Shown here one piece after another: positions 11,997 through 27,198 of a stretch of DNA of 32,251 nt. The notes under the pieces are model-generated. The model was not told where the DNA came from and searched no databases. It saw only the letters and a program-made list of their open reading frames with translations. The DNA lies in the IMG/VR virus record IMGVR_UViG_3300017757_001866, positions 1 to 32,251 of that record; one strand, written 5' to 3'. Position 1 is the stretch's first letter. The number at the start of each line of letters is the position of its first letter. Source of the stretch: a virus. The position numbers were made by a program, and so were the translations under genes.

Positions 11997-13211
11997 ATGT
12001 TTAGTTTTAAAGGGTTCCTATCAAGTGGAACAAATACACATCTCGAACACCTAGAAGACGATATAATAAATCGTGGTTCAAAAGGTGGCGAAAACGCAAT
12101 TAACTTTTTAAAGTCAACTAGAAATATGTTGGCCGGTTCTGTGGGCGGTAAGCTCAATGTAACCGTTAAGTGGGACGGAGCTCCTGCCATTGTTTGTGGT
12201 GTAAATCCAGAAAACAATAAATTCTTCGTTGGTACTAAATCAGTATTCAATGTCACTCCCAAAATAAATTATACAGTAGCGGACATCAATCGTAACCATT
12301 CAGGCGTAGTTGCAAAAAAACTAAAAGTTTGTTTGAGTGAGTTAAGTAGAGTAGGTATTACCGACATATTACAAGGCGACCTATTGTTTACAGATGATAC
12401 TAAATCGGTCACAATAGATGGTGAAAGTATGATTTCTTTTACACCTAATACAATCACATATGCAGTACAAGCTTCTAGTGGTGTTGGTAAAAAGATTGCT
12501 CGTGCTAAAATGGGTATAGTGTTTCATACTCGTTATAGTGGTAAAACAATGGACAAACTAAATGCTAGTTTTGGATCCGTAAAAGGTTCTACATCAAGTA
12601 GAGTTTGGATGGCTTCTGCTCAATATAAAGATACATCTGGTTCAGTAATGTTCAATAAATCTGAACTTGCGGCTTTTGATAATCAAATAAAAATGGCTCA
12701 AGGCTCTTTATCAAAAGCTGCCCCTATACTAAACGAAATGTCAAAGACAAGTCAAGACGCAAACTCGGTTGGTTACAGATTAAAAACTTACTTCAACATG
12801 TATATTAGAACCACAAAAGGTGGTATGGAAAAAGTTTCAACAATGCAAAAACAATTTGCTGACTACTATGAAAATATGTTGCAAGCAGAAATAGACAGCA
12901 GAAAAACACCAAAAGGTCAAGAGAAATTTATTAAACAGAAAAAAGAGGGTTTGGACTTTATCAAAAGAAATCAACAAGCATTATACTTTGCGATTGCAAG
13001 TCATATCACATTAGCAAATTGTAAAAATACTTTACTACAAAAGATGAACCAGATACAGAGTATCGGTAACTTCATTAGAACATCAACAGGTTATAGAGTG
13101 ACAGCACCAGAGGGTTATGTTGCAGTTGATAGAGTTGCTGGTGCAGTTAAACTGGTTGATAGATTAGAATTTAGTAGAACCAATTTTACATTACCAAAAG
13201 GATGGAATTAG
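11997..13211 (+). CDS. Ligase-like nucleotidyltransferase (KxDG motif), conserved in marine T4-like phages
   Basis: A 404-residue protein with a GAGGA ribosome site. KWDGAPAIV (K58, D60, G61) matches motif I of covalent nucleotidyltransferases (DNA/RNA ligases, capping enzymes), in which Lys takes the AMP. KFFVGTKSVFN follows like motif Ia, and LQGDLLF (residues 125-131) is placed like motif III. The later segment GIVFHTRY may form motif IV. This supports a ligase-superfamily fold, but motif V is not clear. The N-terminus MFSFKGFLSS followed by NTHLEHLEDDI resembles capsid-targeting-like N-termini of neighbours but lacks the terminal Glu. Substrate unknown: RNA or DNA end joining is inference. 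Confidence 0.85.
   Translation: MFSFKGFLSSGTNTHLEHLEDDIINRGSKGGENAINFLKSTRNMLAGSVGGKLNVTVKWDGAPAIVCGVNPENNKFFVGTKSVFNVTPKINYTVADINRNHSGVVAKKLKVCLSELSRVGITDILQGDLLFTDDTKSVTIDGESMISFTPNTITYAVQASSGVGKKIARAKMGIVFHTRYSGKTMDKLNASFGSVKGSTSSRVWMASAQYKDTSGSVMFNKSELAAFDNQIKMAQGSLSKAAPILNEMSKTSQDANSVGYRLKTYFNMYIRTTKGGMEKVSTMQKQFADYYENMLQAEIDSRKTPKGQEKFIKQKKEGLDFIKRNQQALYFAIASHITLANCKNTLLQKMNQIQSIGNFIRTSTGYRVTAPEGYVAVDRVAGAVKLVDRLEFSRTNFTLPKGWN
13196..13202 (+). promoter_or_regulatory. Ribosome site that decides the adenylate kinase start
   Basis: AAAAGGA lies eight bases before GTG 13211 but directly abuts the in-frame ATG 13202, which could not use it. This favours the GTG and a product beginning MKSFKDYIFE. 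Confidence 0.65.
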
Positions 13212-13786
13212 TGAAGAGTTTTAAAGATTATATATTCGAAGCGTTAGGTAGAAAACGAATTATAATGATAGGTGGTCCAGGTTCTGGTAAATCTACCTAT
13301 TCAGAAATTATATCTAAAGAACTAGAGATACCACATATCTATACTGGTGACATGATGAGAAAGTTGGCAAAGACAGATACACCAGATGGTAAGAAAGTAA
13401 AAGAATTATTAGCGAAAGGTGAATTTGCACCTACACCTATTGTTATCAAAGCAGTAAGTGATAGACTAGAACAACCAGACGCACAAAAAGGTTACATCTT
13501 TGATGGTTTTCCAAGAAGTGTAGAACAAGCAGAGAAGATGAAAACCGCTGATATAAAATATGACTATGTAATTAACCTAGTCGTATCAGAGGAAGAAGTT
13601 ATTAAAAGGTTAACTGCTAGAGGTAGAGCAGATGATAAACCAGAAATTATTAAGAAAAGAATTAAAGTGTATCACGAACTAACTGCTCCATTATTACAAC
13701 ATTATAAAGATGAGATAATAAATATTAAAGCAGAGGGTGGCACACCAGAGGGTATAGCAAAAACTATAATTAGTAAAGTAAAATGA
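13211..13786 (+). CDS. Adenylate kinase-like NMP kinase with CTS-like N-terminus
   Basis: A 191-residue NMP kinase that should convert AMP and ATP to two ADP (or a related NMP). The P-loop GGPGSGKS is at residues 21-28, followed by YTGDMMR, FDGFPRS (D98) and an Arg-rich RLTARGRADDKPEIIKKR. This order is that of adenylate kinase with a short lid. I choose GTG 13211 because AAAAGGA at 13196-13202 is eight bases upstream. From there the N-terminus MKSFKDYIFE|A carries a ten-residue extension matching the T4 capsid-targeting pattern, with an I-F-E cleavage site. It overlaps the preceding stop by one base and the next gene by four. Cleavage after E10 would leave the kinase domain intact. Confidence 0.9.
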   Translation: MKSFKDYIFEALGRKRIIMIGGPGSGKSTYSEIISKELEIPHIYTGDMMRKLAKTDTPDGKKVKELLAKGEFAPTPIVIKAVSDRLEQPDAQKGYIFDGFPRSVEQAEKMKTADIKYDYVINLVVSEEEVIKRLTARGRADDKPEIIKKRIKVYHELTAPLLQHYKDEIINIKAEGGTPEGIAKTIISKVK

Positions 13787-14478
13787 AAAATTTTGACGAC
13801 ATAAGATTTCAAGACCTACAAGAAGGCTTGTACGATAAAAATATATTCAAGGCATTCTTCCTTGCAGGTGGTCCAGGTTCTGGTAAATCATTTGTGACTA
13901 AAGGTGCATTTGGTGGAACAGGATTAAGAGTTATTAATTCAGATAATGCATTTGAAATGTCATTGAAAAAAAATAATCTATCTCTTAAAATGCCTGAAGA
14001 TGAGGCAGAGGCTAGAGATATTATTAGAGACAGAGCAAAGGCTATGACTGGCAATCAAATGGACTTATCAATCAAAGGTAGATTAGGTATGGTCATTGAT
14101 GGTACTGGTAGAGATTACGATAAGATTAAATCACAGACGGCACAGTTAAGACAATTAGGTTATGATTGTTATATGATATTTGTCAACACAAGTTTAGATG
14201 TTGCATTAGAAAGAAACGCAAAAAGAGATAGAACTGTACCAGAATATATTACAAGAAAATCATGGTCGGCAGTACAAGCCAATATTGGTAGATTTCAAAA
14301 CCTATATGGTATGTCTAATATGATTATTGTTGACAACAGTAAAAATGAGAAAGAACTTACAACAATTGTTATGAATAAAGTTGATAAGTCAGTTAGAAGA
14401 TTATTAGGTAATAAAATTCAGTCATACACAGCTAAAAGATGGATGGCAACAGAAAGAAAATTAAAGAGAAGAACATGA
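13783..14478 (+). CDS. P-loop kinase (polynucleotide kinase/zeta-toxin-like)
   Basis: A 231-residue P-loop protein. Walker A GGPGSGKS is at residues 29-36, followed by VINSDNAFE with D54 placed as the catalytic acid of PNK/zeta-type kinases. MVIDGTGRDY fits a substrate-binding strand, and R144-x3-R148 plus R150 form a lid-like arginine cluster. The tail is basic. The N-terminus MKNFDDIRFQDLQE|G ends in an L-Q-E site, like its neighbours. The start overlaps the previous stop as ATGA. Phosphorylating a nucleic-acid 5' end would pair with the ligase-like gene upstream, but a zeta-type sugar kinase activity is equally compatible with the motifs. Confidence 0.85.
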   Translation: MKNFDDIRFQDLQEGLYDKNIFKAFFLAGGPGSGKSFVTKGAFGGTGLRVINSDNAFEMSLKKNNLSLKMPEDEAEARDIIRDRAKAMTGNQMDLSIKGRLGMVIDGTGRDYDKIKSQTAQLRQLGYDCYMIFVNTSLDVALERNAKRDRTVPEYITRKSWSAVQANIGRFQNLYGMSNMIIVDNSKNEKELTTIVMNKVDKSVRRLLGNKIQSYTAKRWMATERKLKRRT

Positions 14479-16514
14479 GATTACTAGAAAGCATTATTGA
14501 TATACCGAGAAAGAACTATGCGCCAGCAGTATTTGATGACGCTGATACTTCTAATCCTAAAATCAAACCTAGTGTTGTTGTATTGATTAACAAACAACTA
14601 GAGATGTTTGAAGAAGAATATCCTGTTTTAAAAGTTTCTCTTATTGGTTCTATTCTTACAAAGAGATATAGAAATGACGCAGACTTGGATTTAAATGTAT
14701 TGTTTGATGTACCTGCTGATAAGCAAGAAGAAGAAAGATTAAGACTATCTAAAAAGTATTTGTCTGTAAGTAATCCAGATAACATTCAAGGTAAATTAAT
14801 ACCTGGTACTAAACACCCTATCAATTATTATTTTATAACTGATAAAAAAACTTATGATGACCAAAACAAAAAGGCAGACGCCGTGTTTGACATTGAGGGT
14901 AATAAGTTTGTAAAAAGACCAGAAGATTTTAAGTTTGATGTTAATGTTTATATTGCAGACTTCAATAAAAAAGTACAAGAGTTAGATGTAGTCAAAGGTG
15001 AAATGAAAAGAGATATCATTGACTATGATGAACTAAAAGAATTACAACCAGATGATATTCTAAACTTACAAGAAAAGATTAATGAGAAATTAGAAGAGAT
15101 AGAAGATAGTATAAAAGATATTATCAAAATTGGTGATGGCATTGACGCAGATAGAAGAGCAGCCTTTGATACAGATATGACACCAGACCAAATACAAAAG
15201 TTTGGCATTAAGAATAGATTACCTAAAAATGTGGTCTATAAAATGTTAGAGAAATACCACTATCTTGCTTTCTATAAGAAGTGTAAAAAGATTTTAGATG
15301 ATGGTGAGGTAACAGACGCAGAGATTGATAGTCTCAAAGAGGCAAAAAGTAAGACAGTTGCATTTACATTTGGTAGATTTAATCCACCTACAATTGGTCA
15401 CGAAAAACTTATTAAGAAAGTTAAGTCGTTATCAACAAATGACCATAAAATTTATTTAAGTAGAAGTAATGACCCTAAAAAGAATCCATTAACTCCTACA
15501 CAAAAACTATCTTATATGAAGAAATTGTTTCCTGCTCATGCAAGAAATATAGAAATCAATAAGACTAATATGATATTAGATATTGCTACCATGTTGCATA
15601 ATAAAGGTTATACAAGCATAACAATGGTTGCAGGTTCAGATAGAGTAAGAGAATTCGAAACTATACTAAAGAAATATAATGGTGTATCATCAAGACATGG
15701 TTTATATGACTTCGAAGATATCAAAGTTGTATCTGCTGGTGAAAGGGATCCTGACGCCGAGGGTGCCACAGGTATGAGTGCTAGTAAGATGAGAGACGCA
15801 GCTTCAAAAGGTGATTTAGATAGTTTCAAAAAAGGATTACCAAATAGTACATACGCACAAGCCATGATGAAAGATGTTAGAAAAGGTATGAATTTAGCGG
15901 CTAGTTATGTACCTGAAAATAGAATAGTATCATTAAAAGAATTTGAACAACAACAAGTAAGAGACCTTTATATCAGAGAACAAATCTTTAACATAGATGA
16001 TAAAGTAAAATACAATGACATAGAGGGTAAGGTTGTTAGAAGAAGTACGAATTATGTTGTATTAGAAGATACTAATAATAACATGCATAAGGCATGGATA
16101 TGGGATTGTACACCTATTGCAGGTGATAAAGAGGCAATCATTAGAGAATACAACACTAATATTGATTATGGATTTGAGGCAGTATCTAAACCAGACACTA
16201 AAAAGATGAAAGGTTTTGCCGAGTGGAACAATGAAAGTTATGATATAGGTCAAGATTATGCACAACACACAATGAAAATGACACCAGGCCAAGATGGATA
16301 TGACCCTAAACATAAGGGTGATAACTACAAACCATCTAAATCTGGTAGTGGTAAACCAGTCACAACTAGACCAGAGACTACTGATATATCTAAAAAAGAT
16401 ATCAAAGAATGGTCATCTTCAAAATCCACAATAGATAAATATAGAGAAAGATATAAAGAACATTGGAAGGCCAAGTTAAATGAGGTTGTCCAAAAAATTC
16501 TGGAGAAACTATAA
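14475..16514 (+). CDS. Pol-beta-type nucleotidyltransferase fused to NMNAT/cytidylyltransferase domain
   Basis: A 679-residue multidomain enzyme. I place the start at ATG 14475 (ATGA overlap, GAGAAG upstream) rather than the in-frame ATG 14439. Residues 55-75 hold LIGSILTKRYRNDADLDLNV, the G-S-x10-D-x-D signature of Pol-beta nucleotidyltransferases, with a further Asp in DVNVYIAD. Residues 296-309 (AFTFGRFNPPTIGH) and 434-440 (MSASKMR) are the GxxxPxxxGH and ISSTxxR motifs of class I adenylyltransferases such as NMN adenylyltransferase. A SH3/KOW-like segment (NIDDKVKYNDIEGKVVRR) follows, then a low-complexity tail. The two nucleotidyltransferase activities in one chain suggest NAD or nucleic-acid end chemistry. 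Confidence 0.88.
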   Translation: MRLLESIIDIPRKNYAPAVFDDADTSNPKIKPSVVVLINKQLEMFEEEYPVLKVSLIGSILTKRYRNDADLDLNVLFDVPADKQEEERLRLSKKYLSVSNPDNIQGKLIPGTKHPINYYFITDKKTYDDQNKKADAVFDIEGNKFVKRPEDFKFDVNVYIADFNKKVQELDVVKGEMKRDIIDYDELKELQPDDILNLQEKINEKLEEIEDSIKDIIKIGDGIDADRRAAFDTDMTPDQIQKFGIKNRLPKNVVYKMLEKYHYLAFYKKCKKILDDGEVTDAEIDSLKEAKSKTVAFTFGRFNPPTIGHEKLIKKVKSLSTNDHKIYLSRSNDPKKNPLTPTQKLSYMKKLFPAHARNIEINKTNMILDIATMLHNKGYTSITMVAGSDRVREFETILKKYNGVSSRHGLYDFEDIKVVSAGERDPDAEGATGMSASKMRDAASKGDLDSFKKGLPNSTYAQAMMKDVRKGMNLAASYVPENRIVSLKEFEQQQVRDLYIREQIFNIDDKVKYNDIEGKVVRRSTNYVVLEDTNNNMHKAWIWDCTPIAGDKEAIIREYNTNIDYGFEAVSKPDTKKMKGFAEWNNESYDIGQDYAQHTMKMTPGQDGYDPKHKGDNYKPSKSGSGKPVTTRPETTDISKKDIKEWSSSKSTIDKYRERYKEHWKAKLNEVVQKILEKL

Positions 16515-16864
16515 TGAAGTCATTAAAAGAGTGGGATAATATAGACGAGAAGTGTGAAGAGTGTATATTCGAACATGAGAGTGAGCCTTTAGAAGAGGCT
16601 GAACATCAAGGTAAGAAAGTCACACTAAACAATCCTATGAGAACTCCAGGTGGACCTAAAAAGTTTGCCGTATATGTGAAAAACGAAACCGGTAATGTGG
16701 TCAAAGTCACATTTGGTGACCCTAATATGGAAATCAAAAGAGACGACCCTAATCGTAGAAAAAATTTCAGAGCCAGACACAATTGTGAGAATCCTGGTCC
16801 AAAAACTAAAGCTAGATATTGGTCTTGTTATCAATGGAGAAGCGGAGCAAAGGTAGACAACTAA
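16514..16864 (+). CDS. Cys/His/Arg-rich conserved phage protein with CTS-like N-terminus
   Basis: A 116-residue protein with GGAG at 16502-16505. Its start shares one base with the upstream stop. The first third is acidic (MKSLKEWDNIDE, then CEECIFEHESEPLEE). The second half is a compact segment: NPMRTPGGPKKFAVYVKN, VTFGDPNMEIKRDDPNRRK, then FRARHNCENPGPKTKARYWS, with two Cys and a His. This block recurs in marine T4-like phages and looks like a small folded domain, possibly zinc-binding. Function unknown. I-D-E (residues 10-12) and several later acidic sites could be prohead-protease targets, so an internal virion protein is plausible. Confidence 0.8.
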   Translation: MKSLKEWDNIDEKCEECIFEHESEPLEEAEHQGKKVTLNNPMRTPGGPKKFAVYVKNETGNVVKVTFGDPNMEIKRDDPNRRKNFRARHNCENPGPKTKARYWSCYQWRSGAKVDN

Positions 16865-16865
16865 A

Positions 16866-19394
16866 ATGAAAAAAATAAGCGCATACAGAAAGACATTCTC
16901 CGAGGCTTTACAACAAGTCAGAGAGCCTATTAACGAATTTAAAAAAATGACAGTCACATTCAAATCTATGGCTGATATGTCAAAGGCCTCAACTGACTTA
17001 GCAAAACAAGGTTTTACGATTGACGCAAAAGGTATGGTTATGAAAGTAGATGGTAAAGGTGCAGACCTTAACAAGTATGCTACAGACCTTAAAAACTTTT
17101 ATCATGCTTCAGTAAGAGCAGAGAGTTATGCCATTGATGAAAGCGCTGACGAAGATAATTACGACCCTATTACAGAGGCTTGTTGGGTAGGTTGGACTCA
17201 AAGAGGCATGAAAATGAAAGGTGGTAAACAAGTACCTAATTGTGTCAAAGAAGAAATGACAAATGAGGAACTTGAACAAGACTACAATGAAAATGTTGAT
17301 GATTATTTCAAGTCTAAACTAGACGCAAAACAAATTCAAAATTTAAAAACTGTATGGTCAAGAAAGAACGCAAGTGATATTACACCTGCTATCAAGAAAA
17401 TGCTTAAAGCAATGGATGTTCCAACACAACTTGCTATTAAACATGCAAACATCAATCAGATTTCAAAACTAATTGAAGAGAATGAAGACCTAATAGATGA
17501 AAATTTTAGTAAAGCACAACTAGATAAATTAGCCAAAGAGTATGAAAGCTTGAGAGGCAAAAGAATATCTATGGATAATGCAAACAAATTAAGAAAAATG
17601 TTTGACAAGATACCTGATAGTGCATTAAAAGATTTAAAGAACAAAAAGATACCTTTCTTATCAGCCATGGCATTATCAAGAATGGTACAAAAAGGAATGA
17701 AGTTAGAAGATTGGGTGCCTGCTTACGAAGATGTAATCAATGAGGGTACTGGTACTATTACTAATTTCAGAAACGATAGAGAAGTCACTAACATGATGTC
17801 TTTAGCAAAACAACACGGCGTCACAGCAACATTAGTTGGTTCTGGTGCAGGTGCAAAGGTTATGTTAAAAGGTAACATGAGAAAAATATTAGACATGCAA
17901 TTAGCCGCTCAAAGAAACGGTCTAAAAGCTGAAGAAATATTATTTGTAGAAGTAAAAGAGGAAGAAGAACTACCTAAAAAGGTTGCTAAGAAGAATGAAC
18001 CTGACCAAATTGCTGATACAGAAACGAAAAAAGAAGGTGGTGACGCAGAGAAATTAAAGTCTGAACTTGAAAAGAAAGACGCAGAAATCAATGCTCTAAA
18101 AACTAAAGCAGAGACAGAGAAAGCTAAAGTTGCCAAAAAAGAAACAGAGAAGTTGGTAAATCCAGAAACTGGTGAGCCATTACTTCAAGTTGGTATTGCA
18201 TACAAACATCTTAAAGATAAGATGATGAAACAAAAAGAAGCCGTTAAAGAAATGTGGGAAGAAAATCTTAATGAATTTTCAACTCAACAAATTAAAATGG
18301 CATATGGTATCTTAAATGACCCTAGATATAAACAAGGTAATTATTCAGGTGCAGTTAAGGCTATTGAGAAACTTGCAACAGGTTTATCTAAACATAAAGA
18401 TGTTGCTAACGCATTAAAAAGAGCAAATGAAGCCTATGAAAATATGTCAAAAGATAAAGCATATGCAATTGGTATGTCAACTGCTAAAAAGAAATTCAAT
18501 GATGAAAAACCATTAGAGAAATCTACTATCAAAAAAGGACATGAGATTGCTGATAAACTTCTAGGTAAGAAAGAAGATTTAGACGCACAACCACAAGACA
18601 AAGATGTTAAGTCAAAAGATGGTACTCAACCTAAAAAGTATTATAAAAATTTATCAAAAGATACTAAAGACAGTAGAGCAAATCACTTTGCTAAAAAAGA
18701 TACAACTAAAAACGATAACAGTCCAGCACCTGGTGATAAAGACGCAGAAACAAAACCGTCTCAATTCACACAAAAGTACAAGAAGATGTATGGTGAGGGT
18801 AAGATGTCACAGATTGACGCCATGCAAAAAGATGGTAAGTCATCAAGTGAGATTGCTAAGTTAATGAAGTTACCGTTGAGAGTGGTAAAATCAATTCTTG
18901 GAGAACATGTTGAACATCCTGCTAAACAGATGTTCGAACAAATAGAAGGATTGAAAAACAAAGCAGAAAAATCTGGAATGTCATACGGTATTCTAAAAAA
19001 AGTTTACGATAGAGGCATGGCCGCTTGGAGAGGTGGACACCGACCAGGTACTACACAGCAACAATGGGCTTTCGCTAGAGTAAATTCATTCATAACAAAA
19101 TCCTCTGGAACATGGGGTGGTGCAGATAAAGATTTAGCTGCTAAAGTAAAAGGTGAGAGTTTAGAAGAAGCAAGTCTATATGCTTTTAAAGAATATGAAC
19201 CATCACAATCTTATGAAGCAAGTAGAGATATGAAAAATGTTGAAGACGCAATTAAAAGAGCGGGTGGTAGAATTAAAAGTAAAGAAAAACCTACACAAAG
19301 AGAACCAAATGCTTCATTTGAAATTGAAACAGGTAATCCTAATGCAGTTAAAGCTGCTATTAAAAAGGCAGACCCCGAATTTAATGTAGATTAA
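16866..19394 (+). CDS. Large multidomain internal/virion-associated protein with DUF5824/DUF5872-like C-terminal part
   Basis: An 842-residue lysine/glutamate-rich protein. Modules in order: a basic start (MKKISAYRKTFSEALQQVRE); a small alpha/beta unit (25-75); EACWVGWTQRGMKMKGGKQV near 104-123, a Cys-containing motif frequent in marine phages; a helical part (130-290); a second alpha/beta unit (about 295-350); a coiled coil (about 385-430); and a region with KKVYDRGMAAWRGGHRPGTT (about 710-730) matching the DUF5824/DUF5872-type motif, followed by FARVNSFI. Linkers end in I-D-E (212), I-N-E (293), L-N-E (470) and L-E-E (768), fitting prohead-protease sites. Function unknown. Confidence 0.85.
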   Translation: MKKISAYRKTFSEALQQVREPINEFKKMTVTFKSMADMSKASTDLAKQGFTIDAKGMVMKVDGKGADLNKYATDLKNFYHASVRAESYAIDESADEDNYDPITEACWVGWTQRGMKMKGGKQVPNCVKEEMTNEELEQDYNENVDDYFKSKLDAKQIQNLKTVWSRKNASDITPAIKKMLKAMDVPTQLAIKHANINQISKLIEENEDLIDENFSKAQLDKLAKEYESLRGKRISMDNANKLRKMFDKIPDSALKDLKNKKIPFLSAMALSRMVQKGMKLEDWVPAYEDVINEGTGTITNFRNDREVTNMMSLAKQHGVTATLVGSGAGAKVMLKGNMRKILDMQLAAQRNGLKAEEILFVEVKEEEELPKKVAKKNEPDQIADTETKKEGGDAEKLKSELEKKDAEINALKTKAETEKAKVAKKETEKLVNPETGEPLLQVGIAYKHLKDKMMKQKEAVKEMWEENLNEFSTQQIKMAYGILNDPRYKQGNYSGAVKAIEKLATGLSKHKDVANALKRANEAYENMSKDKAYAIGMSTAKKKFNDEKPLEKSTIKKGHEIADKLLGKKEDLDAQPQDKDVKSKDGTQPKKYYKNLSKDTKDSRANHFAKKDTTKNDNSPAPGDKDAETKPSQFTQKYKKMYGEGKMSQIDAMQKDGKSSSEIAKLMKLPLRVVKSILGEHVEHPAKQMFEQIEGLKNKAEKSGMSYGILKKVYDRGMAAWRGGHRPGTTQQQWAFARVNSFITKSSGTWGGADKDLAAKVKGESLEEASLYAFKEYEPSQSYEASRDMKNVEDAIKRAGGRIKSKEKPTQREPNASFEIETGNPNAVKAAIKKADPEFNVD

Positions 19395-19408
19395 GGTTTT
19401 TTTATATT

Positions 19409-19903
19409 ATGAAAGAAGTGGTACGGCATTGTTATGCAAAAGGTAATGTAATATATAAAAGTAGAATTTTAAAATACAAACCTTTTCCATATAAAATGAT
19501 ATATCATGTGATGGATTTGATACAAGAAAATTTGACACCTGAACTATTAAAAGGTAGAAAAAAAGTAATGTATCCTAATGATGTAAACAATGTAAAGTAT
19601 TATGGACATTGTTACCATGCGTCACAAGCTTTATATTATTTAATTGATACTGACAGCTTAATAGGTGTTAGTGCAAAAGATTATAGAGGTGAAAAACATT
19701 GGTGGTTACAAGACGGTAATCAAATCTTTGATGTAACCTCTGAACAATATTTCTCGGTAGATAAAAAACCACCTTGGAATACTGGTAAGAAAACAAAATG
19801 GTATGGTTGGCAAGAAAGACCTCAACAAATATCATTAAATTTAATGACTAGCGTTTTGAAAGATAGACTAGTTAAAGACGAAACAGTAAATAAAGGAAAC
19901 TAA
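19409..19903 (+). CDS. Transglutaminase/papain-like Cys-His-Asp fold protein
   Basis: A 164-residue protein. The arrangement YGHCYHASQALYYL (C68), then EKHWWLQD (H97), then FDVTSEQY (D108) gives a Cys-His-Asp triad in the order and spacing of transglutaminase-like and NlpC/P60-type hydrolases. It is a motif-level inference, not a family match. The N-terminal 60 residues are basic. The ribosome site is weak, and the gene is separated from the previous one by a short T-rich stretch. It could modify a host or capsid protein, or be an inactive relative; the sequence does not tell which. Confidence 0.75.
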   Translation: MKEVVRHCYAKGNVIYKSRILKYKPFPYKMIYHVMDLIQENLTPELLKGRKKVMYPNDVNNVKYYGHCYHASQALYYLIDTDSLIGVSAKDYRGEKHWWLQDGNQIFDVTSEQYFSVDKKPPWNTGKKTKWYGWQERPQQISLNLMTSVLKDRLVKDETVNKGN

Positions 19904-19904
19904 A

Positions 19905-20240
19905 ATGTCATATTTAAATCATAAACCAGGTTCTTTGGAAGAGATTATCAAAGAGAAATCACAACACATGAACGATAGTGCTTATCAAGACCTGTTTAAA
20001 AAAGAACTACAAAAAGCTGGTAAAGGTATCGGTGCAATGTCTAACGCAGAAAAGACAGCATTCTTTAATAAATTAGATAAAATGCACAAAGGTAAGAACG
20101 AAGATACTAGAGATATGGTGAGAGAACCAGATGAGAAGACTAAAAAAGAAGCAGAACAAAATAAGAACAAAAAAACTACTGATACTGGTTCAAAACCTAC
20201 TGAAATAGATACAAAACCAGAGATTTCTTACAACAAATAA
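19905..20240 (+). CDS. Small charged phage protein, possible virion-associated
   Basis: A 111-residue protein that follows the previous stop with a one-base gap and has GGAAAC upstream. It begins MSYLNHKPGSLEEIIKE, has a helical motif FKKELQKAGKGIGAMSNAEK with AFFNKLDKMHKG, and ends in a K/E/T-rich low-complexity tail. The FxxxLxxxGK...EKxxFFNxLD pattern recurs in marine T4-like phage virion genes, but I cannot assign a function. Its position in the internal-protein block makes a virion-associated role the first guess. Confidence 0.75.
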   Translation: MSYLNHKPGSLEEIIKEKSQHMNDSAYQDLFKKELQKAGKGIGAMSNAEKTAFFNKLDKMHKGKNEDTRDMVREPDEKTKKEAEQNKNKKTTDTGSKPTEIDTKPEISYNK

Positions 20241-20262
20241 GCAAAAAAGGTGTTTTTTTCGC
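20241..20262 (+). terminator. Weak A/T-tract hairpin terminator
   Basis: GCAAAAAA-GGTG-TTTTTTT-CGC forms a small A:T stem with a G:C base and a bulged C. It directly follows the stop at 20240 and precedes the -35 at 20263, a compact terminator-promoter junction. The stem is weak, so efficiency is doubtful. Confidence 0.45.
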
Positions 20263-20291
20263 TTGCCTTATGTGTAACCTTGTGTTATAAT
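20263..20291 (+). promoter_or_regulatory. sigma70-type promoter (TTGCCT-17-TATAAT)
   Basis: TTGCCT at 20263-20268 and TATAAT at 20286-20291 with a 17-bp spacer and TGt extended -10. Transcription would start near 20298, ahead of the nucleotidase ATG at 20318 and its AAAAGG. This isolates the HAD gene from the virion block. Confidence 0.6.
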
Positions 20292-20317
20292 ATAGTCATA
20301 ATAAAAAAGGATACACT

Positions 20318-20803
20318 ATGAAAAATTTACCAAGAATATACCTCGATATGGATGGTGTTCTATTTGACTTTGTAAAGAACATTGAAAAGACTACTGGTCT
20401 TACAATTGACCAATGGACTAAACTTGGTAGAAAAGAGCGATGGGACCCAATCATTGCTAACAAGAAATTTTGGTCAGACGGACCATGGTTAGCAGAGGGT
20501 AAGAAACTATTTGCCTTTGTCAAGAAATACAATCCACATATATTAAGTGCATATGTAGAACATGCTCACGACCCTAATTGCATTCCAGGCAAGAAGAAGT
20601 GGGCTATGAGAAACACTGGAATACCTAGTAATAAAATCAATCTAGTAATGAGAAGTCAGAAAAAGAACTATGCAAGTCCTGGTTCTATACTAATTGATGA
20701 TTACGAGAAGAATACCAAAGAGTTTACCCAAAGAGGTGGAACTGGTATTACATTCAAAACTGCCTCACAAACCATTTCCGAGTTGAAAAAACTAGGCTTT
20801 TAA
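20318..20803 (+). CDS. HAD-superfamily 5'(3')-deoxyribonucleotidase-like phosphatase
   Basis: A 161-residue HAD-fold protein. Motif I is YLDMDGVLFDF with nucleophile D10 and acid D12. Motif II is ILSA (S77), a Lys in the KINLV/SQKKNYA stretch gives motif III, and ILIDDYEKN with D127 and D128 is motif IV. The overall layout resembles the NT5C family, which removes phosphate from deoxynucleoside monophosphates. Such enzymes adjust nucleotide pools in phage infection. It has its own early-type promoter and sits upstream of a late-promoter gene, so its timing should differ from the next gene. The phosphatase call is good; the substrate is inferred. Confidence 0.87.
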   Translation: MKNLPRIYLDMDGVLFDFVKNIEKTTGLTIDQWTKLGRKERWDPIIANKKFWSDGPWLAEGKKLFAFVKKYNPHILSAYVEHAHDPNCIPGKKKWAMRNTGIPSNKINLVMRSQKKNYASPGSILIDDYEKNTKEFTQRGGTGITFKTASQTISELKKLGF

Positions 20804-20813
20804 ATTTCCCCCT

Positions 20814-20821
20814 TATAAATA
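20814..20821 (+). promoter_or_regulatory. T4-type late promoter TATAAATA
   Basis: Exact match to the T4 late box in the gap before the structural-like gene at 20878; the expected start near 20828 gives a leader of about 50 bases with AGGGAGAG before the ATG. The best placed of the four late boxes. Confidence 0.75.
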
Positions 20822-20877
20822 GTAGTACGATATTAAAAATTGAGTACCTATTTAACAACTAAAAGGGAGAGAATAAT

Positions 20878-21159
20878 ATGTCAAGTTGGGGAATTACAGA
20901 CAACGCCGCTAACAGTCCATTATGGGCAGCTGCAAGTCTTAAAGTAGAGGGTAGTACCTCTAATAGAACTGCTTTATTTGAAAACGCTTCTGCTGGTACC
21001 TTTATTACAGGTGCTACGCATGGTTTATTCAATTATGCAGACAACGAAACACAATCAGGTGCTATCGCACATGTCGGTTGGAATTTAAAAACAACTGGTT
21101 CAGGTGGTAGAGCAGGTAGAGTACAATATACTACTCTAGTTGCAATGTCTGGTTACTAA
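20878..21159 (+). CDS. Small structural-like virion protein
   Basis: A 93-residue protein with few charged residues, rich in Gly, Ala, Ser, Thr and Asn, beginning MSSWGITDNAANSPLWAA. Its C-terminal GWNLKTTGSGGRAGRVQYTT is a pattern I associate with small marine T4-like phage structural proteins. It is framed by an exact late promoter and a strong hairpin, with a strong AGGGAGAG ribosome site, so it should be produced separately and in quantity late in infection. No catalytic motif. A capsid decoration or tail component are both possible. Confidence 0.8.
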   Translation: MSSWGITDNAANSPLWAAASLKVEGSTSNRTALFENASAGTFITGATHGLFNYADNETQSGAIAHVGWNLKTTGSGGRAGRVQYTTLVAMSGY

Positions 21160-21170
21160 TAAGTAAAATC

Positions 21171-21200
21171 GTATAGGCGGCTCCTCGGGGTCGCCTATAT
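21171..21200 (+). terminator. Strong hairpin (terminator or 3' stabiliser)
   Basis: TATAGGCG (21172-21179) pairs perfectly with CGCCTATA (21192-21199), and the loop side adds CTCC/GGGG partial pairing. It starts 12 bases after the stop at 21159. The downstream bases are AT-rich without a long T-run, so it may act as an mRNA-end stabiliser as much as a terminator. Confidence 0.7.
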
Positions 21201-21216
21201 ATTATTAATAAAGTGA

Positions 21217-21252
21217 TTGCGTCAACTGGCGCAAGTAGAATTCCCGAAAGGG
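21217..21252 (+). other. Structured 5' leader (two small hairpins)
   Basis: TTGCG (21217-21221) pairs with CGCAA (21230-21234). CCC-GAAA-GGG (21243-21252) forms a three-pair stem with a GNRA-type tetraloop just before AAAGGAG. They lie in the leader of the gene at 21268. Confidence 0.4.
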
Positions 21253-21255
21253 TTT

Positions 21256-21262
21256 AAAGGAG
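21256..21262 (+). promoter_or_regulatory. Ribosome site deciding the 21268 start
   Basis: AAAGGAG lies five bases before ATG 21268, favouring that start over in-frame upstream alternatives. Confidence 0.75.
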
Positions 21263-21267
21263 AAAAA

Positions 21268-21729
21268 ATGGCAGATAAGAAAATAACACAGTTAACTGAC
21301 CTTGGCTCAGCCTTGGCTCAGGCAGACTTGTTTCACATTGTGGACGACCCAAGTGGAACACCAATCAACAAATCAGTAAGTGCAGAAAATGTTTTCAATA
21401 ACATTCCTACATGGATTGGTTTAAAACAAGCTTCACAAGCTATCACAGGTGATGGTTCAACAGTAAGTGCAATTAGTGTATCGGAATCAATTACAGAGGT
21501 AGTAGCAACATCAGCTGCTGCTCCTTGTACATTGGCAAACGGCGATAACGGTCAAATCAAAACAATCATTAATACTTCAGCAAGTGGTACAAATGATGTA
21601 GTGATTACACCAACTTCATTGAATGGTCACACTACTATTACATTAAATGCTCCAGGCGAAACGGTAACTTTAATGTATAAGAACTCAAACTGGAATATCA
21701 TTGCAGGCCACGGTTACACAGTAGCCTAA
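21268..21729 (+). CDS. Virion/tail-fiber-like protein
   Basis: A 153-residue, low-charge protein starting at ATG 21268 (MADKKITQLTDLGSALAQAD). This opening (K-x-T-x-L...ADLF-IVDD) is typical of N-terminal segments of phage tail-fiber or head-fiber proteins. The rest is repetitive, Thr/Ser/Asn-rich and predicted beta (SAISVSESITEVVATSAAAP). A final GETVTLMYKNSNWNIIAGHG resembles the end of short beta-helical fiber tips. It follows the small structural-like gene and lacks its own late box, so it may depend on readthrough from 20814. Head-fiber or tail role is inference. Confidence 0.75.
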   Translation: MADKKITQLTDLGSALAQADLFHIVDDPSGTPINKSVSAENVFNNIPTWIGLKQASQAITGDGSTVSAISVSESITEVVATSAAAPCTLANGDNGQIKTIINTSASGTNDVVITPTSLNGHTTITLNAPGETVTLMYKNSNWNIIAGHGYTVA

Positions 21730-21743
21730 TTAGGAGATAAATT

Positions 21744-21965
21744 ATGATTGATTTAGAAACATTACAAAATGAAAAGGCACTATTGAAAACTGAATTTGAT
21801 AAACTAAATGCAGAGATAAAAAAGGTTGAATATGATTTAGGTACTATGAGAGCAAACTTAAATGCTTTACATGGTGCTGTTCAACAGAATGATAAGTTTA
21901 TTAATATGTTGAAACCTAGTGATGACGAAGAAGCCTTAAAACAAAGTGTGGCGGAAGTTAAGTAA
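21744..21965 (+). CDS. Short coiled-coil protein
   Basis: A 73-residue protein with an AGGAG ribosome site. Residues 5-48 show heptad-like leucine spacing (LETLQNEKALLKTEFDKLNA), followed by a short acidic tail. No domain is recognised. It sits directly before a block of genes with CTS-like starts, and may be an assembly or scaffolding accessory, but nothing in the sequence proves it. Confidence 0.7.
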   Translation: MIDLETLQNEKALLKTEFDKLNAEIKKVEYDLGTMRANLNALHGAVQQNDKFINMLKPSDDEEALKQSVAEVK

Positions 21966-22097
21966 ATGAAAAAATTTAAAACTTATATAAATGAAAAAGT
22001 TTTAGAAGACTTCGAGGAAGATAATGTCAAACCTGAAAAGGCAGATAAAGAAACCGAGAAGAAAGAAAATAACGAGGAAAAAAATGAAAACATTTAA
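21966..22097 (+). CDS. 43-residue peptide with CTS-like start
   Basis: A small ORF starting at ATG 21966, immediately after the preceding stop. The product begins MKKFKTYINE|K, ending in an I-N-E site, followed by an acidic, lysine-rich tail (KVLEDFEEDN, then E/K/N repeats). Its 3' end overlaps out of frame with the start of the next gene. After cleavage only about 33 highly charged residues would remain, like a small internal peptide. The ribosome site is poor, which is why confidence is moderate. Confidence 0.5.
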   Translation: MKKFKTYINEKVLEDFEEDNVKPEKADKETEKKENNEEKNENI

Positions 22098-22527
22098 ACA
22101 GCATATCAAAGAAGACCATCAAGGTAAATATGGTGCTGGGCAAGTGGGTACAACGACAAGTGTATCACCCGAAGATAGTAATATCGGTGCTCACAACATT
22201 GACAATCCTGATGTTCTTAAAAAAGTAAATGCTTTTGTAGGTGCAGTAGGCAATCAAGAATATATGAATTGTGAAGCGGCTGTTAATCAACTACGAGAAA
22301 AATTACAAACAATTGGTTTAAGCTTTGAAGTCCCTGCTATTAAAGAGGACAAAGGTACAATCAATTTAGAAGTGACACAATTCGGCGGAAGATTTGGTAA
22401 AGACATTGACGGTTCCGATATTAATGATGACGGTATTTCTCATAGAAAAGAGGGCGGCCTAAAATTGCAAGTGCAATACGAAACATTAAGTACAGGAACA
22501 TCTAAAGTCTTTGCAAAGTTAGTTTAA
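22084..22527 (+). CDS. Hypothetical protein with CTS-like N-terminus
   Basis: A 147-residue protein. I choose ATG 22084, which has GAGGA (22074-22078) five bases upstream, over more upstream in-frame starts. It opens MKTFKQHIKE|D with an I-K-E site, then a Gly/Ser/Thr-rich linker. The middle (DVLKKVNAFVGAVGNQEYMN) is helical, and the end contains beta-like segments (LEVTQFGGRFG, KLQVQYETLSTG). No domain is recognised. It belongs with the other CTS-like proteins. Confidence 0.75.
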   Translation: MKTFKQHIKEDHQGKYGAGQVGTTTSVSPEDSNIGAHNIDNPDVLKKVNAFVGAVGNQEYMNCEAAVNQLREKLQTIGLSFEVPAIKEDKGTINLEVTQFGGRFGKDIDGSDINDDGISHRKEGGLKLQVQYETLSTGTSKVFAKLV

Positions 22528-22546
22528 TCTAACAGAGTAAAGTGAA

Positions 22547-22909
22547 ATGTTCAAAGAGATAAACAATGAGAATTGGTTATTATATGCACAACACACATAT
22601 GATAACCCGACTTTAGAAAAAGAAGTCGAATTTTATGATGACTTGAAGAGGTTTAAATACCTCAAAAGGTTATTTCGTAGATATAAAATAACCCATGAGA
22701 TGAAAATTCGTTTGGTATTAAACCATATCGTTGTATTATCTAATGTGTTTGGTGTAGAAGGAGCAATAACGCTATTGTTATTTAAGATAGATAAAGAATA
22801 CTGGCCGATTTTAAAAGCTATATTTAATTATCTTGACTATCTATACCCACATGAATTTATTGACATGGAAGCAGATAGAAATACAGAGGAAATGTTAACA
22901 CAATTATGA
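22547..22909 (+). CDS. Conserved hypothetical protein (helical, 120 aa)
   Basis: A 120-residue, all-alpha looking protein, rich in Tyr, Phe, Lys and Leu. Segments such as RFKYLKRLFRRYKITHEM and IRLVLNHIVVLSNVFG recall proteins of marine T4-like phages that I cannot name. It starts at ATG 22547, and its stop overlaps the next gene's ATG by four bases. Translational coupling with the next gene suggests they act together. No catalytic residues are evident. Confidence 0.8.
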   Translation: MFKEINNENWLLYAQHTYDNPTLEKEVEFYDDLKRFKYLKRLFRRYKITHEMKIRLVLNHIVVLSNVFGVEGAITLLLFKIDKEYWPILKAIFNYLDYLYPHEFIDMEADRNTEEMLTQL

Positions 22910-23382
22910 GTAGAGCAATTGATTTTTTAATAACTTATCGTGTTGTCAAAATGCTGGTAACTCCGTTTGAAAAAACAGAGGCATTTAAAAGAGGCATTAT
23001 AGATAAAGATGGTAAGACATTGAGACCTATGAAGACCATTAAAACTGGTTCAGATAGAAAACATTATACTATGCTTCATAGATTTGTATTTAATCTGAAA
23101 AGAATATTGAGAAAGGCCGGTCTAGGCAGTAGATTAGGAACTTTTGGTGTTGCATTAGCATTACTTATCAAAGAAGATAAACAATATGCTGATTACAAAG
23201 ACGCCATAGAGAGTGCCATCATAAAGCATTTAAAAGAAGAAAATCTTTATGATGAAATTTTAAACGAAGTTAGAGAAATACCAGAGATAAACGCAGAGCC
23301 ATATATGACTTGTTTCGGCATAGACATATATGAAAAAGACGGCGAACTGGTTTCGGAGTACGATTATGCCAAAGCATTATAA
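22906..23382 (+). CDS. Conserved hypothetical protein (158 aa)
   Basis: A 158-residue protein starting as ATGA overlap with the previous stop. The N-terminus (MSRAIDFLITYRVVKMLVTP) is followed by a basic central part (SDRKHYTMLHRFVFNLKRIL). An acidic C-terminus ends EKDGELVSEYDYAKAL. I recognise the general look from marine T4-like genomes but not a function. The central basic helices could bind nucleic acid or membranes. Confidence 0.8.
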   Translation: MSRAIDFLITYRVVKMLVTPFEKTEAFKRGIIDKDGKTLRPMKTIKTGSDRKHYTMLHRFVFNLKRILRKAGLGSRLGTFGVALALLIKEDKQYADYKDAIESAIIKHLKEENLYDEILNEVREIPEINAEPYMTCFGIDIYEKDGELVSEYDYAKAL

Positions 23383-23683
23383 AGAAATGATTGATGAAAT
23401 AATTAATAAGATGAGTGAAGACGCCCCAGCTAATTCTGTTGCAGGTGGCGGTGTTGACATGAATCCAAATGGTAAAAAACCAAAAGAAAAAAAACCTGAC
23501 ATTCTTAAAAGACTTGGTAAAAACATCAAAGAGAACAATGATAATAACAATGTTGTTTTAAAAGGTGTATTAGATAAGATTACCAAGATAGAAACCGCCA
23601 TAGATGGCGAAGAACAAAAGATAGAGTTTGTTGAAGATGTTGAAGAGTACAAAACCTTTAAAGATAAATACAACAATGACTAA
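23366..23683 (+). CDS. Small charged protein, possible internal protein
   Basis: A 105-residue protein. ATG 23366 with GGAG at 23355-23358 (seven bases) is preferred to in-frame upstream starts; it overlaps the previous gene by 17 bp. It opens MPKHYKEMIDEIINKMSE|D and contains PANSVAGGGVDMNPNGKKPK, a Gly/Pro-rich linker. The rest is charged and helical. The N-terminus has I-D-E and M-S-E, similar to but looser than the MKxFK CTS-like pattern. Confidence 0.7.
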   Translation: MPKHYKEMIDEIINKMSEDAPANSVAGGGVDMNPNGKKPKEKKPDILKRLGKNIKENNDNNNVVLKGVLDKITKIETAIDGEEQKIEFVEDVEEYKTFKDKYNND

Positions 23684-23888
23684 AAGTTTTAAAGAATATA
23701 TGGGTGTCACAGGTGTTAGAATTGGTGGCGTAGATAACGCACACCCTATGGCCTCTCTTGGTGATACACCACCAAAAGGAACAGGCAGTAGAGATAATAG
23801 AGGCGTTGGTTTGAACGCAAGTAAAAATAAAAAAGATACACCTTTGTATAAGTATTTACAAAAAAAAGGTGTAATAAAAAAGGATTAG
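23676..23888 (+). CDS. Small protein with MTKSFKEYM start
   Basis: A 70-residue basic protein, start ATG 23676, overlapping the previous stop by eight bases. It begins MTKSFKEYMGVTGVRIGGVD, sharing the S/K-F-K-x-Y core of the CTS-like N-termini but lacking the final Glu. A Gly/Asn-rich centre and a basic end (YKYLQKKGVIKKD) follow. Unknown function. Confidence 0.65.
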   Translation: MTKSFKEYMGVTGVRIGGVDNAHPMASLGDTPPKGTGSRDNRGVGLNASKNKKDTPLYKYLQKKGVIKKD

Positions 23889-26237: not shown

Positions 26238-27071
26238 ATGAAAAGACTATTTACAGGTCTTTTATTATGTTTCGTAATGGGATTTACACAAGTGACATTT
26301 GCGGACACCACTTCAAATGGTGCCACGACCAACGCACAAACTAATACTAGTGGCTCTAACACTACCATTTCTGGTGGTTACAGCCAAGAAGCAACAACCA
26401 CATACCAAAGTGGTTCGTCTAGCAATACCACATCATCAACAACAAATACTACTAACGCCTATTCAGGTGACACTAGAGTGGTATCTTCAGCTTCATCTCC
26501 ATCTATGTCAGCAATGTCACAGGATTTATGTGTAGTAGGAATGAGTGCTGGTGTATCTACATTTGGTGTAGGTTTATCAGGTGGTACATATAGAACAGAT
26601 GAAAATTGTGAAAGAATAAAATTAAGTAAAGTTTTAAATGACCTAGGAATGAAGGTGGCGGCTGTGTCAATCCTTTGTCAGGATCCTAGAGTGTTCTTTG
26701 CAATGGAACAATCCGGGACACCATGCCCCTTTGAAGGCAAAATCGGAGCAGACGCAAAAGCACAATGGAAATTGTATGGTAAGTTAAGACCAGACTATGA
26801 CCAATATACAGAAAGATTAAAAGTTGTTCAAAAGGCAGACAAGATAGAGGCTAAAAGAGTTGAAGAAGAAAGAATAGAAGCAGAGAAAAAGGCCGAAGAA
26901 GAAAGAATAACAAGACTTAAAAAAATTGAAGAAGATAAAAAAAGATTATCAACAGAAATAGAGAATGAAGCATGGAATGATGTTGATAAAGAAACAGTTA
27001 GTGAGGGTGTTGTCGAAAAAAAGTCAGAAAAAAAAACTTCAATCACCAATTTCAACGGGAACGGGAGATAA
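26238..27071 (+). CDS. Exported Ser/Thr/Asn-rich protein
   Basis: A 277-residue protein with a clear signal peptide (MKRLFTGLLLCFVMGFTQVT, cut near FA|DT). Residues 23-90 are low-complexity Thr/Ser/Asn/Gln. A Cys-containing folded middle follows (DLCVVGMSAGVSTFGVGLSG, then SILCQDPRVFFAMEQSGTPC). Residues from about 200 on form a highly charged helix rich in Glu/Lys. AGGGA precedes ATG 26238 and a late box lies upstream. It should reach the periplasm or beyond late in infection. Its function is unknown; it may be related to envelope remodelling or superinfection exclusion (inference). Confidence 0.82.
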   Translation: MKRLFTGLLLCFVMGFTQVTFADTTSNGATTNAQTNTSGSNTTISGGYSQEATTTYQSGSSSNTTSSTTNTTNAYSGDTRVVSSASSPSMSAMSQDLCVVGMSAGVSTFGVGLSGGTYRTDENCERIKLSKVLNDLGMKVAAVSILCQDPRVFFAMEQSGTPCPFEGKIGADAKAQWKLYGKLRPDYDQYTERLKVVQKADKIEAKRVEEERIEAEKKAEEERITRLKKIEEDKKRLSTEIENEAWNDVDKETVSEGVVEKKSEKKTSITNFNGNGR

Positions 27072-27078
27072 ATAAATT

Positions 27079-27198
27079 ATGGATTATGATACCATTAGCA
27101 TTATTATTTGGAGTAGCATTGTAATATATGGCGCATACAAATTTTATATGTGGGTGCATAGCCTTAATCCTTACGATTTTAGCGACAAGTCAAAGTAA
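27079..27198 (+). CDS. 39-residue TM peptide overlapping the next gene
   Basis: ATG 27079 with GGAG at 27064-27067. The product begins MDYDTISIIIWSSIVIYGAY and has one predicted TM helix and a short polar tail. It overlaps the start of the exported gene at 27128 in another frame. Supported by ribosome site and TM pattern only; coding status is uncertain. Confidence 0.4.
   Translation: MDYDTISIIIWSSIVIYGAYKFYMWVHSLNPYDFSDKSK

Follow-up and report, generated by a model that had tools for sequence, protein, structure and literature searches.

Several otherwise unrelated proteins encoded in a 32,251-nucleotide stretch of viral DNA (the window) begin with nearly the same short segment, and this observation, made in an earlier note on the sequence, is confirmed, with every listed start and sequence found in the window. 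We consider it highly probable that the segment is a T4-type capsid-targeting and prohead-protease tag carried by an unexpected cargo of nucleotide enzymes. The presence of a putative T4-type capsid targeting sequence (CTS) on such enzymes is well supported by the sequences compared, and by analogy with T4 this marine T4-like phage probably packages an adenylate kinase (ADK), a kinase and a nucleotidyltransferase and delivers them with its DNA. The packaging reading had already been put forward in the earlier note: modular tags, an invariant junction Glu, a spread over at least 43 families, and cyanophage virion data that include an orthologue of one window enzyme speak for it, whereas two of its supposedly cleavable members and one of its cut sites did not hold.

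In T4, the first 10 residues of the internal protein (IP) IPIII are enough for packaging, the gp21 cut falls after L/I-x-E, and the virion ejects both the IPs and Alt into the host (PMC9026906). If the window tag acts in the same way, it would bind the prohead core and draw its protein into the assembling head, where a gp21-type prohead protease would cut after the Glu and leave the enzyme free inside the capsid, ready for ejection along with the DNA. Besides the ADK, the cargo would include the P-loop kinase, the nucleotidyltransferase/NMNAT-like enzyme, the DUF5824 protein and several small proteins. Ahead of phage gene expression, such proteins would probably modify the host's pools of nucleotides, NAD or RNA, or block its defences.

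Tagged and Tag-like Genes in the Window

The features are listed below; genes are named by their first position, and an arrow marks a cleavage site.

11997..13211, plus strand: DUF6267 protein with the start MFSFKGF; no Glu site
13211..13240, plus strand: 10-residue tag MKSFKDYIFE of the ADK; predicted cut before Ala11
13211..13786, plus strand: adenylate kinase (PF00406, Pfam E 1.7e-43), proposed packaged cargo
13783..13824, plus strand: 14-residue tag MKNFDDIRFQDLQE of the P-loop kinase; predicted cut before Gly15
13783..14478, plus strand: AAA_33/zeta-toxin-type P-loop kinase, from domain and homologue searches
14475..14489, plus strand: putative short tag MRLLE before SIIDIPR of the nucleotidyltransferase, from the tags and Glu of its relatives
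14475..16514, plus strand: nucleotidyltransferase and cytidylyltransferase/NMNAT-like protein, from its domains; orthologues in virions
15333..15347, plus strand: internal LKE↓AK junction between the two domains of the 14475 protein; Ala codon at 15342
16514..16597, plus strand: 28-residue propeptide MKSLKEWDN...EPLEE of the 16514 protein; predicted cut LEE↓AEHQGK
16866..16904, plus strand: 13-residue tag MKKISAYRKTFSE, then A, of the DUF5824 protein, from its relatives' junctions
21966..21995, plus strand: 10-residue tag MKKFKTYINE of a small acidic protein, in exact T4 register
22084..22113, plus strand: 10-residue tag MKTFKQHIKE, near-identical to the T4 gp61.1 start MKTFKEFIKE↓D
23366..23419, plus strand: possible propeptide ending MSE↓DAPAN, resembling the sister-phage gp23 site and mature arm
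23676..23888, plus strand: start MTKSFKEYMGV, tag-like, not cleavable

Among the members proposed earlier, 13211, 13783, 16514, 16866, 21966 and 22084 end in a Glu site. The starts of 11997 (MFSFKGFLSSG) and 23676 have none, in the window copy or in most relatives, and both are rejected as cleavable tag bearers. The start of 23366 is of another kind.

The 10-residue starts of 13211, 21966 and 22084 stand in exact register with the T4 CTS. Those of 13783, 14475, 16514 and 16866 are of other lengths, each closing with a gp21-type site, hydrophobic-x-Glu, where the domain begins; lengths run from about 5 to 28 residues, 13783 and 16866 lying in the longer, IPI-like range and 14475 (5) and 16514 (28) beyond the T4 range. 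The CTSs of T4 IPI (MKTFKEFTSTTTPVSTITE, then A), IPII and IPIII (both MKTYQEFIAE↓A) resemble the window tags in being N-terminal, of 10–19 residues, with an MKT[FY]..F start and an [IL]xE↓A end; unlike them, the window tags vary from 5 to 28 residues and may have Phe or Met at P3.

Invariant Junctions before Unrelated Domains

Among homologues in four families the P1 Glu is invariant at the domain boundary while P2 and tag length vary, which argues for the T4-type tag. In the ADK homologue set (A1), F4, E10 and A11 are invariant and P2 and P3 variable; 28 of 30 satisfied a rule demanding E↓A or E↓V at the end of the tag, and in the remaining two the Glu precedes a different residue. The kinase homologues keep L12, E14 and G15 despite indels of 2–6 residues upstream, with Glu at P1 and Leu or Ile at P3 in 47/47. 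The 16514 family has a conserved site [LI]xE↓[AS]EYQGK at residue 28 (P1 Glu in 16/16, Ile or Leu at P3, Ala or Ser at P1'), and on this conservation the 16514 protein is probably cut at LEE↓A; the cut at IDE↓K given in the earlier note is rejected, most relatives having IDK. A short tag form, MKSLKQFIEE↓K, is carried by L084.

In the 14475 family P1 is Glu in all 26 sequences, and one domain occurs with differing tags: MKQFKDYIKE↓S, MYKKFKDYIVE↓S and MKTFKE↓S in relatives, MKNFSSFLTE↓A and MRFRQFIIE↓A in the orthologues of S-CREM2 and S-SZBM1. The LKE↓AK junction between the two domains recurs directly after the tag in another protein (L230, MKTYKNLIKE↓AKGKT). DUF6267 is tagless in S-SZBM1 (MAKNTHLEHLEDD) and fully tagged elsewhere (MYSFKQYLNE↓AKNTHLEHLEDE). 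That the same domain is found with, without or with another tag in the DUF6267 and 14475 families is a further ground for the T4-type reading. Relatives of 16866 keep the E↓A junction (MSRYRKTMSE↓A, MTRYTKTMAE↓A), and one DUF5824 homologue (L294) carries the tag MKTFKEHIKE↓A. The tag is modular and lineage-specific, ends in hydrophobic-x-Glu, and lies directly before unrelated domains.

Distribution across Viral Contigs

One DNA pattern encoding the tag matches at least 120 stretches in viral contigs, against 1 match for a control with the tag codons in reverse order. The 85 matches read represent 43 unrelated families of proteins, which include T4 IPIII as well as homologues of five families from the window; this spread, too, favours a T4-type tag. 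Among the enzymes or enzyme-like proteins so tagged are ADK, cytidylyltransferase, RNA ligase, ART and glucosaminidase. The sister contigs G001 and G002 point the same way, with a gp21-type protease and a gp23 whose site reads FLSE↓A or FMSE↓A. HTVC008M, too, has such a protease and a gp23 whose site fits; the strict pattern has no gene-start match there. gp21 is absent from the window, a 32 kb fragment, and not detectable in 7 of 14 long tag-bearing contigs, which may themselves be fragments.

We regard as unlikely a reading in which the segment chiefly lets gp21 recognise and remove it, or imitates the end of the gp23 propeptide (FGSFLTE↓A), on structural core or shell parts that are retained in the head. 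Such a role would fit the ungapped alignment of T4 gp61.1 with T4 gp23 over 37 residues across the gp23 cleavage site, as well as the gp23-like arms that follow the site in 23366 and in two tagged contig proteins, L275 (MKTFKEFIRE↓AAPTNSTGSGV) and L299, but the enzymes named above are unexpected as structural parts, and the T4 IPs and Alt are ejected (PMC9026906).

Tagged Proteins in Virions

In the published mass spectrometry of S-CREM2, 5 of 6 tag-bearing proteins are detected in virions compared with 52 of 218 overall (Fisher P 0.003), the orthologue of the 14475 enzyme being among them; the S-SZBM1 data place the 14475 orthologue in virions of that phage too. An NMNAT is likewise reported in S-SCSM1 virions. 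The virion proteomes found include none from a pelagiphage of this type and none with the ADK. Proteins 191 and 192 of S-SZBM1 have perfect tags, yet are not among the 30 detected proteins, and looser tag patterns, with no significant enrichment among virion proteins (P 0.09 and 0.26), are rejected as predictors of virion presence. The virion NMNAT/cytidylyltransferases and kinases of these three cyanophages are the same enzyme types as in the window, with tagged 14475 orthologues; the available parts of the reports differ from the tag reading in mentioning no tag and in listing co-purification of non-structural proteins as a possibility.

The kinase homologue in phage Atu_ph07, gp53, lies inside a cluster (CDS 31–76) with 29 virion proteins; this placement, together with the tagged S-CREM2 proteins in virions, supports the T4-type tag. 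gp53 adjoins about ten proteins that start M[RK]Wx[QD]LxE, and nine other tagged proteins of this phage gave nothing above the Pfam cut-off. The cluster is like the window in that the kinase homologue and its neighbours have a start in common, here the 8-residue M[RK]Wx[QD]L[TN]E, and unlike it in the tag sequence, which suggests that tags follow the core of each phage lineage.

A role outside the head, such as docking to the replication complex or to a host factor, with virion detection due to contamination, appears improbable. The cluster does sit between the replication genes gp41 and gp61, and the cyanophage authors allow co-purification, but the junction fits gp21 specificity with P1 Glu invariant and P2 variable, tagged proteins are enriched in virions, and known packaged T4 proteins bear the same tag.

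The Adenylate Kinase and Its Start

The GTG start at 13211, chosen in the earlier note on ribosome-site spacing, is upheld: an AGGA sits 8 nt upstream of it, and the corresponding codon in relatives is ATG. The ATG at 13202 has no usable ribosome-site spacing and is rejected on this and on the relatives' starts. The domain is confirmed by the invariant P-loop GGPG.GKST, DGFPR and GR.DD in the homologue alignment. Homologues in isolate phages are divergent ones only, most aligning from residue 15–17.

That the segment belongs to the folded enzymes is very improbable. An AlphaFold model of the ADK, whose lowest-confidence stretch is the tag, has a helix at residues 4–11, and for a few chains of eukaryotic ADKs the alignment begins at residue 8–11; against this, the solved bacterial ADKs, M. 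tuberculosis and E. coli enzymes among the matches, align from residue 13–17 (about 15), mostly at their own residue 2–3, the Pfam model begins at residue 19, the identical segment type precedes unrelated folds, and DUF6267 does without it in S-SZBM1. The tag as a piece of the ADK fold, which the earlier note had named as grounds for refutation, is rejected on the alignment of solved structures, and its position outside that fold in turn supports the T4-type reading.

Tests against Chance

The T4-register pattern M..[FYLW]..[FYHW][ILVFM].E, whose letters were picked in part with data already in view, matches 3 of 40 window genes (13211, 21966 and 22084), where column shuffling expects 0.25 (P = 0.0003). 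Inside the genes it matches 1 of 8,941 positions, and no Met segment there out of 254; the tags of other lengths fall outside it. This exact register above chance is a further support of the T4-type tag. Chance or composition can be dismissed almost entirely, for although MK starts are frequent in AT-rich genomes, which would make MK-F-K starts common, the shuffle and internal rate contradict it, as do the strand control (98 plus-strand ATG-start matches, most of them ADK, and 0 minus-strand in 1.22 Mb) and the reversed-codon control.

Known Systems and Implications

Several packaged or tagged phage proteins invite comparison. To our knowledge, the tag of T4 Alt is not of the MKxF type. Alt, an ADP-ribosyltransferase, is a packaged enzyme with a 7-residue N-terminal propeptide removed by gp21 (PMC9026906), and in this it resembles the window cargo, while differing in enzyme class. 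The T4 IPs are small, specialised (anti-restriction) proteins, whereas the window cargo includes housekeeping-type nucleotide enzymes; without their tags, 13211, 21966 and 22084 showed no grouping with T4 IPII/IPIII and no homology of the mature parts. T4 gp61.1 shares with 22084 both its tag and the gp41–gp61 location and, unlike the enzyme cargo, is a short protein; the literature searched gave no mention of it among internal proteins. Ejection proteins of phage P1 are reportedly processed by a prohead protease, with different motifs and propeptides. Those of phiKZ and SPN3US are, like the window proteins, packaged and bear propeptides cut by a gp21-related protease (PMC9026906), but their cleavage motifs and propeptides are others. 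An open-licence search for 'capsid targeting sequence' gave no title on marine phages or cyanophages.

Should the tag prove to be a packaging label, genomes alone would suffice to list injected proteins, cyanophage virion enzymes now unexplained (NMNAT, SAM hydrolase, kinase, Cas9-like nuclease) would gain a mechanism, and metabolic genes usually placed in phage replication would act at time zero; lineage-matched tags could also serve to load proteins into phage heads. On balance we lean towards a broader view, in which the ten-residue start would be a general address label by which T4-superfamily phages, marine ones included, load dozens of unrelated families, window phages bring in, at infection, a kit for processing nucleotides, NAD and RNA ends, cargo is predictable from sequence, and some cargo copies the gp23 site and mature arm. 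In 23366 the site likely lies at MSE↓DAPAN, and the region resembles the sister-phage gp23 sequence MSE↓AAPTNSTGSGV, with shuffle P = 0.001 for G002 and 0.053 for G001.

Tagged proteins as predicted cargo

Short N-terminal tags resembling the T4 capsid targeting sequence (CTS) behave as modules, end at gp21-type junctions (known or predicted cut marked here by a slash), are widely reused and are enriched in one virion proteome. The mechanism itself is already known, being that of the T4 CTS, by analogy with which the tag would bind the prohead core and be cut by gp21, and the cargo would be ejected along with the DNA. Such cargo would here include adenylate kinase, a P-loop kinase and a nucleotidyltransferase with an NMNAT-like domain, for which early control of nucleotide/NAD pools or RNA repair would fit as a guess. 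A 2022 review regards the CTS as possibly a general route by which T4-like phages package varied proteins, and in the open-licence papers searched we found no report of a CTS in marine phages or cyanophages, or on such enzymes.

Gene starts and members in the window

The gene order in the window, a 32 kb IMG/VR virus record, is DNA polymerase, UvsX, gp41 helicase, the tagged region and gp61 primase, which is similar to that of Pelagibacter phage HTVC008M (Kyanoviridae); the tagged genes lie between gp41 and gp61, an interval that in T4 contains gp61.1. At 4826-6448, between DNA polymerase and UvsX, is the gene for a protein whose cyanophage relative carries a tryptophan halogenase annotation, and 26238-28903 encodes two proteins with signal-peptide-like starts and Ser/Thr- or Glu-rich stretches.

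All the starts listed in the earlier note are found in the window sequence. For adenylate kinase, GTG 13211 is the likely start, because it is preceded by AGGA at a distance of 8 nt, the corresponding codon in relatives is ATG, and the rejected candidate, ATG 13202, overlaps the ribosome site. The membership proposed earlier needs amendment: the proteins at 11997 and 23676 lack a Glu site and drop out as cleavable members, the 16514 protein is more likely cut at LEE/A (residue 28) than at IDE/K, and the best-supported member, the nucleotidyltransferase gene at 14475, had been missed. The protein at 23366 may be processed at MSE/DAPAN, where the surrounding residues are similar to those of the cleavage site and arm of gp23 in a sister phage.

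The T4-register pattern, M..[FYLW]..[FYHW][ILVFM].E, matches 3/40 window genes, against a mean of 0.25 in column-shuffled N-termini (P = 0.0003); since the choice of letters in the pattern was made partly with the data in view, this and the other P values are exploratory. The pattern is absent from the 254 internal Met segments of the window (0/254), and one of 8,941 internal positions matches it. T4 IPII and IPIII (MKTYQEFIAE/A) and gp61.1 (MKTFKEFIKE/D) fit it, and IPI has a longer form, MKTFKEFTSTTTPVSTITE/A.

The tag as a module

An alignment of 25 adenylate kinases keeps F4, E10 and A11 without exception, whereas the residues preceding Glu are variable and one-residue gaps fall on either side of it. 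Alignment to solved bacterial adenylate kinases begins at residue 13-17, which in most cases pairs with residue 2 or 3 of the solved protein; the AlphaFold model is least certain over residues 1-10, a short helix ahead of the first strand. In 17 kinases of the 13783 family, L12, E14 and G15 are invariant despite gain or loss of 2-6 residues immediately upstream. The 14475 family starts MRLLE/S in the window and MKQFKDYIKE/S, MYKKFKDYIVE/S, MKTFKE/S and others in relatives, all continuing SIIDIPR. DUF6267 begins directly at the domain in S-SZBM1 (MAKNTHLEHLEDD), follows a tag in two compared loci (MYSFKQYLNE/AKNTHLEHLEDE in L081, MKSFKKYIAE/ASGKNTHMTHIED in L238) and has an MFSFKGF start lacking Glu in the window (11997). 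Over distinct contexts, Glu precedes the predicted cut in 47/47 kinases, 26/26 members of the 14475 family and 16/16 of the 16514 family, and in 28/30 adenylate kinases under an E/A-or-E/V rule (in the remaining two the residue after Glu is Ile or Glu). Position P3 holds Leu, Ile or Phe, with Val or Met in rare cases, and P2 varies more freely. Variable tags on constant domains are what a removable address with a protease site would look like. By eye, VKWDGAPA in the window DUF6267 protein (11997-13211) resembles the KxDG motif of nucleic-acid ligases.

A DNA pattern of tag codons plus Ala matches at least 120 IMG/VR stretches, and a control with the tag codons in reversed order matches 1. Among the matches listed, 85 tag matches make up 43 families, 37 of which have at least one match no more than 15 codons from an upstream stop; these listed matches include T4 IPIII, DUF6267, cytidylyltransferase, DUF5824, DUF5661, DUF6321, DPBB and glucosaminidase, RNA ligase-like and PARP/ART-like proteins (these last two with Pfam matches below cut-off). 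Five families of the window also have homologues among them (11997, 14475, 16514, 16866 and 22084). In one locus (L230) the tag MKTYKNLIKE/AKGKT sits directly on a cytidylyltransferase domain, and its junction recurs inside the window 14475 fusion protein (SLKE/AKSKT), a hint that this protein may be cut a second time at that internal site.

Tagged proteins in virions

Mass spectrometry of cyanophage S-CREM2 virions identified 52 proteins (PMC10665884). The tag pattern occurs on 6/218 S-CREM2 proteins, five of which are in the virion list (one-sided Fisher test, P = 0.003; 0.12 expected from column shuffling); narrower letters ([FY], [FYHW], [IL]) give 3/3.

Tagged proteins in the S-CREM2 virion list
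SAM hydrolase: MKDFDSFLEE
gp13: MKDLHSFLTE
APH-like kinase: MKRFDAFLTE
gp136: MQTFSMFFSE
Cytidylyltransferase gp154: MKNFSSFLTE

The S-SZBM1 cytidylyltransferase (MRFRQFIIE/A) is also virion-detected (PMC9146016). Homology links both enzymes to the cytidylyltransferase part of the window 14475 protein, whose gene neighbourhood is shared with S-SZBM1. S-SZBM1 proteins 191 and 192 have perfect tags, yet are not among the 30 virion proteins of this shallower set, and tagless DUF6267 homologues were undetected in virions of either phage. A virion-detected S-CREM2 protein annotated as a Cas9-like nuclease (OR473000, 7704-10313), from a run of tagged genes (gp12-gp15), carries LRFASFMAE/A about 25 residues from its start.

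Prohead protease and fusion junctions

T4 gp21 cleaves after L/I-x-E (PMC9026906). The 32 kb window contains no gp21 gene; gp21 is encoded by two sister contigs with the same genes as the window, and by HTVC008M, Melnitz, Atu_ph07, Aeromonas phage 65 and T4. At the position of FLTE/A in T4 gp23, gp23 of these relatives has FLSE/A or FMSE/A, and gp21 itself starts MKLISE/E. Among long tag-bearing contigs gp21 was found in 7/14, and the other seven may be fragments.

The Atu_ph07 homologue of the window kinase, gp53, falls by GenBank order within the cluster CDS 31-76, which encodes 29 virion proteins (PMC6102473), and adjoins about ten proteins that start M[RK]Wx[QD]LxE. The eleven-gene run gp53-gp63 (L003, 2488-13596) has one common 8-residue start on nearly all members, many of which appear interrelated (common LYRGM/YRGMK segment); Pfam finds no domain in most. 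In the Atu_ph07 protein AUZ94865 (11260-13596) the kinase is fused behind another domain at SEVTE/GVNDKHIF, the same Glu-Gly junction as in free-standing kinases, which suggests that the fusion protein is cleaved there.

Resemblance to the gp23 cleavage site

T4 gp61.1 (NC_000866, 18966-19130) begins with a perfect CTS-like segment, and 37 of its residues form an ungapped alignment with gp23 that spans the gp23 cleavage site and includes the NI..G.TSGAV...GP arm, with a score matched by 0/2000 shuffles; judged from this likeness, it seems to be an internal head protein that has gone unrecognised. Tagged proteins in two compared loci (L275, 1016-1351, and L299) and at 23366 in the window run on into a mature arm like that of gp23 (AAPTNSTGSGV), so that they look like copies of the major capsid protein in cleavage site and arm alike.
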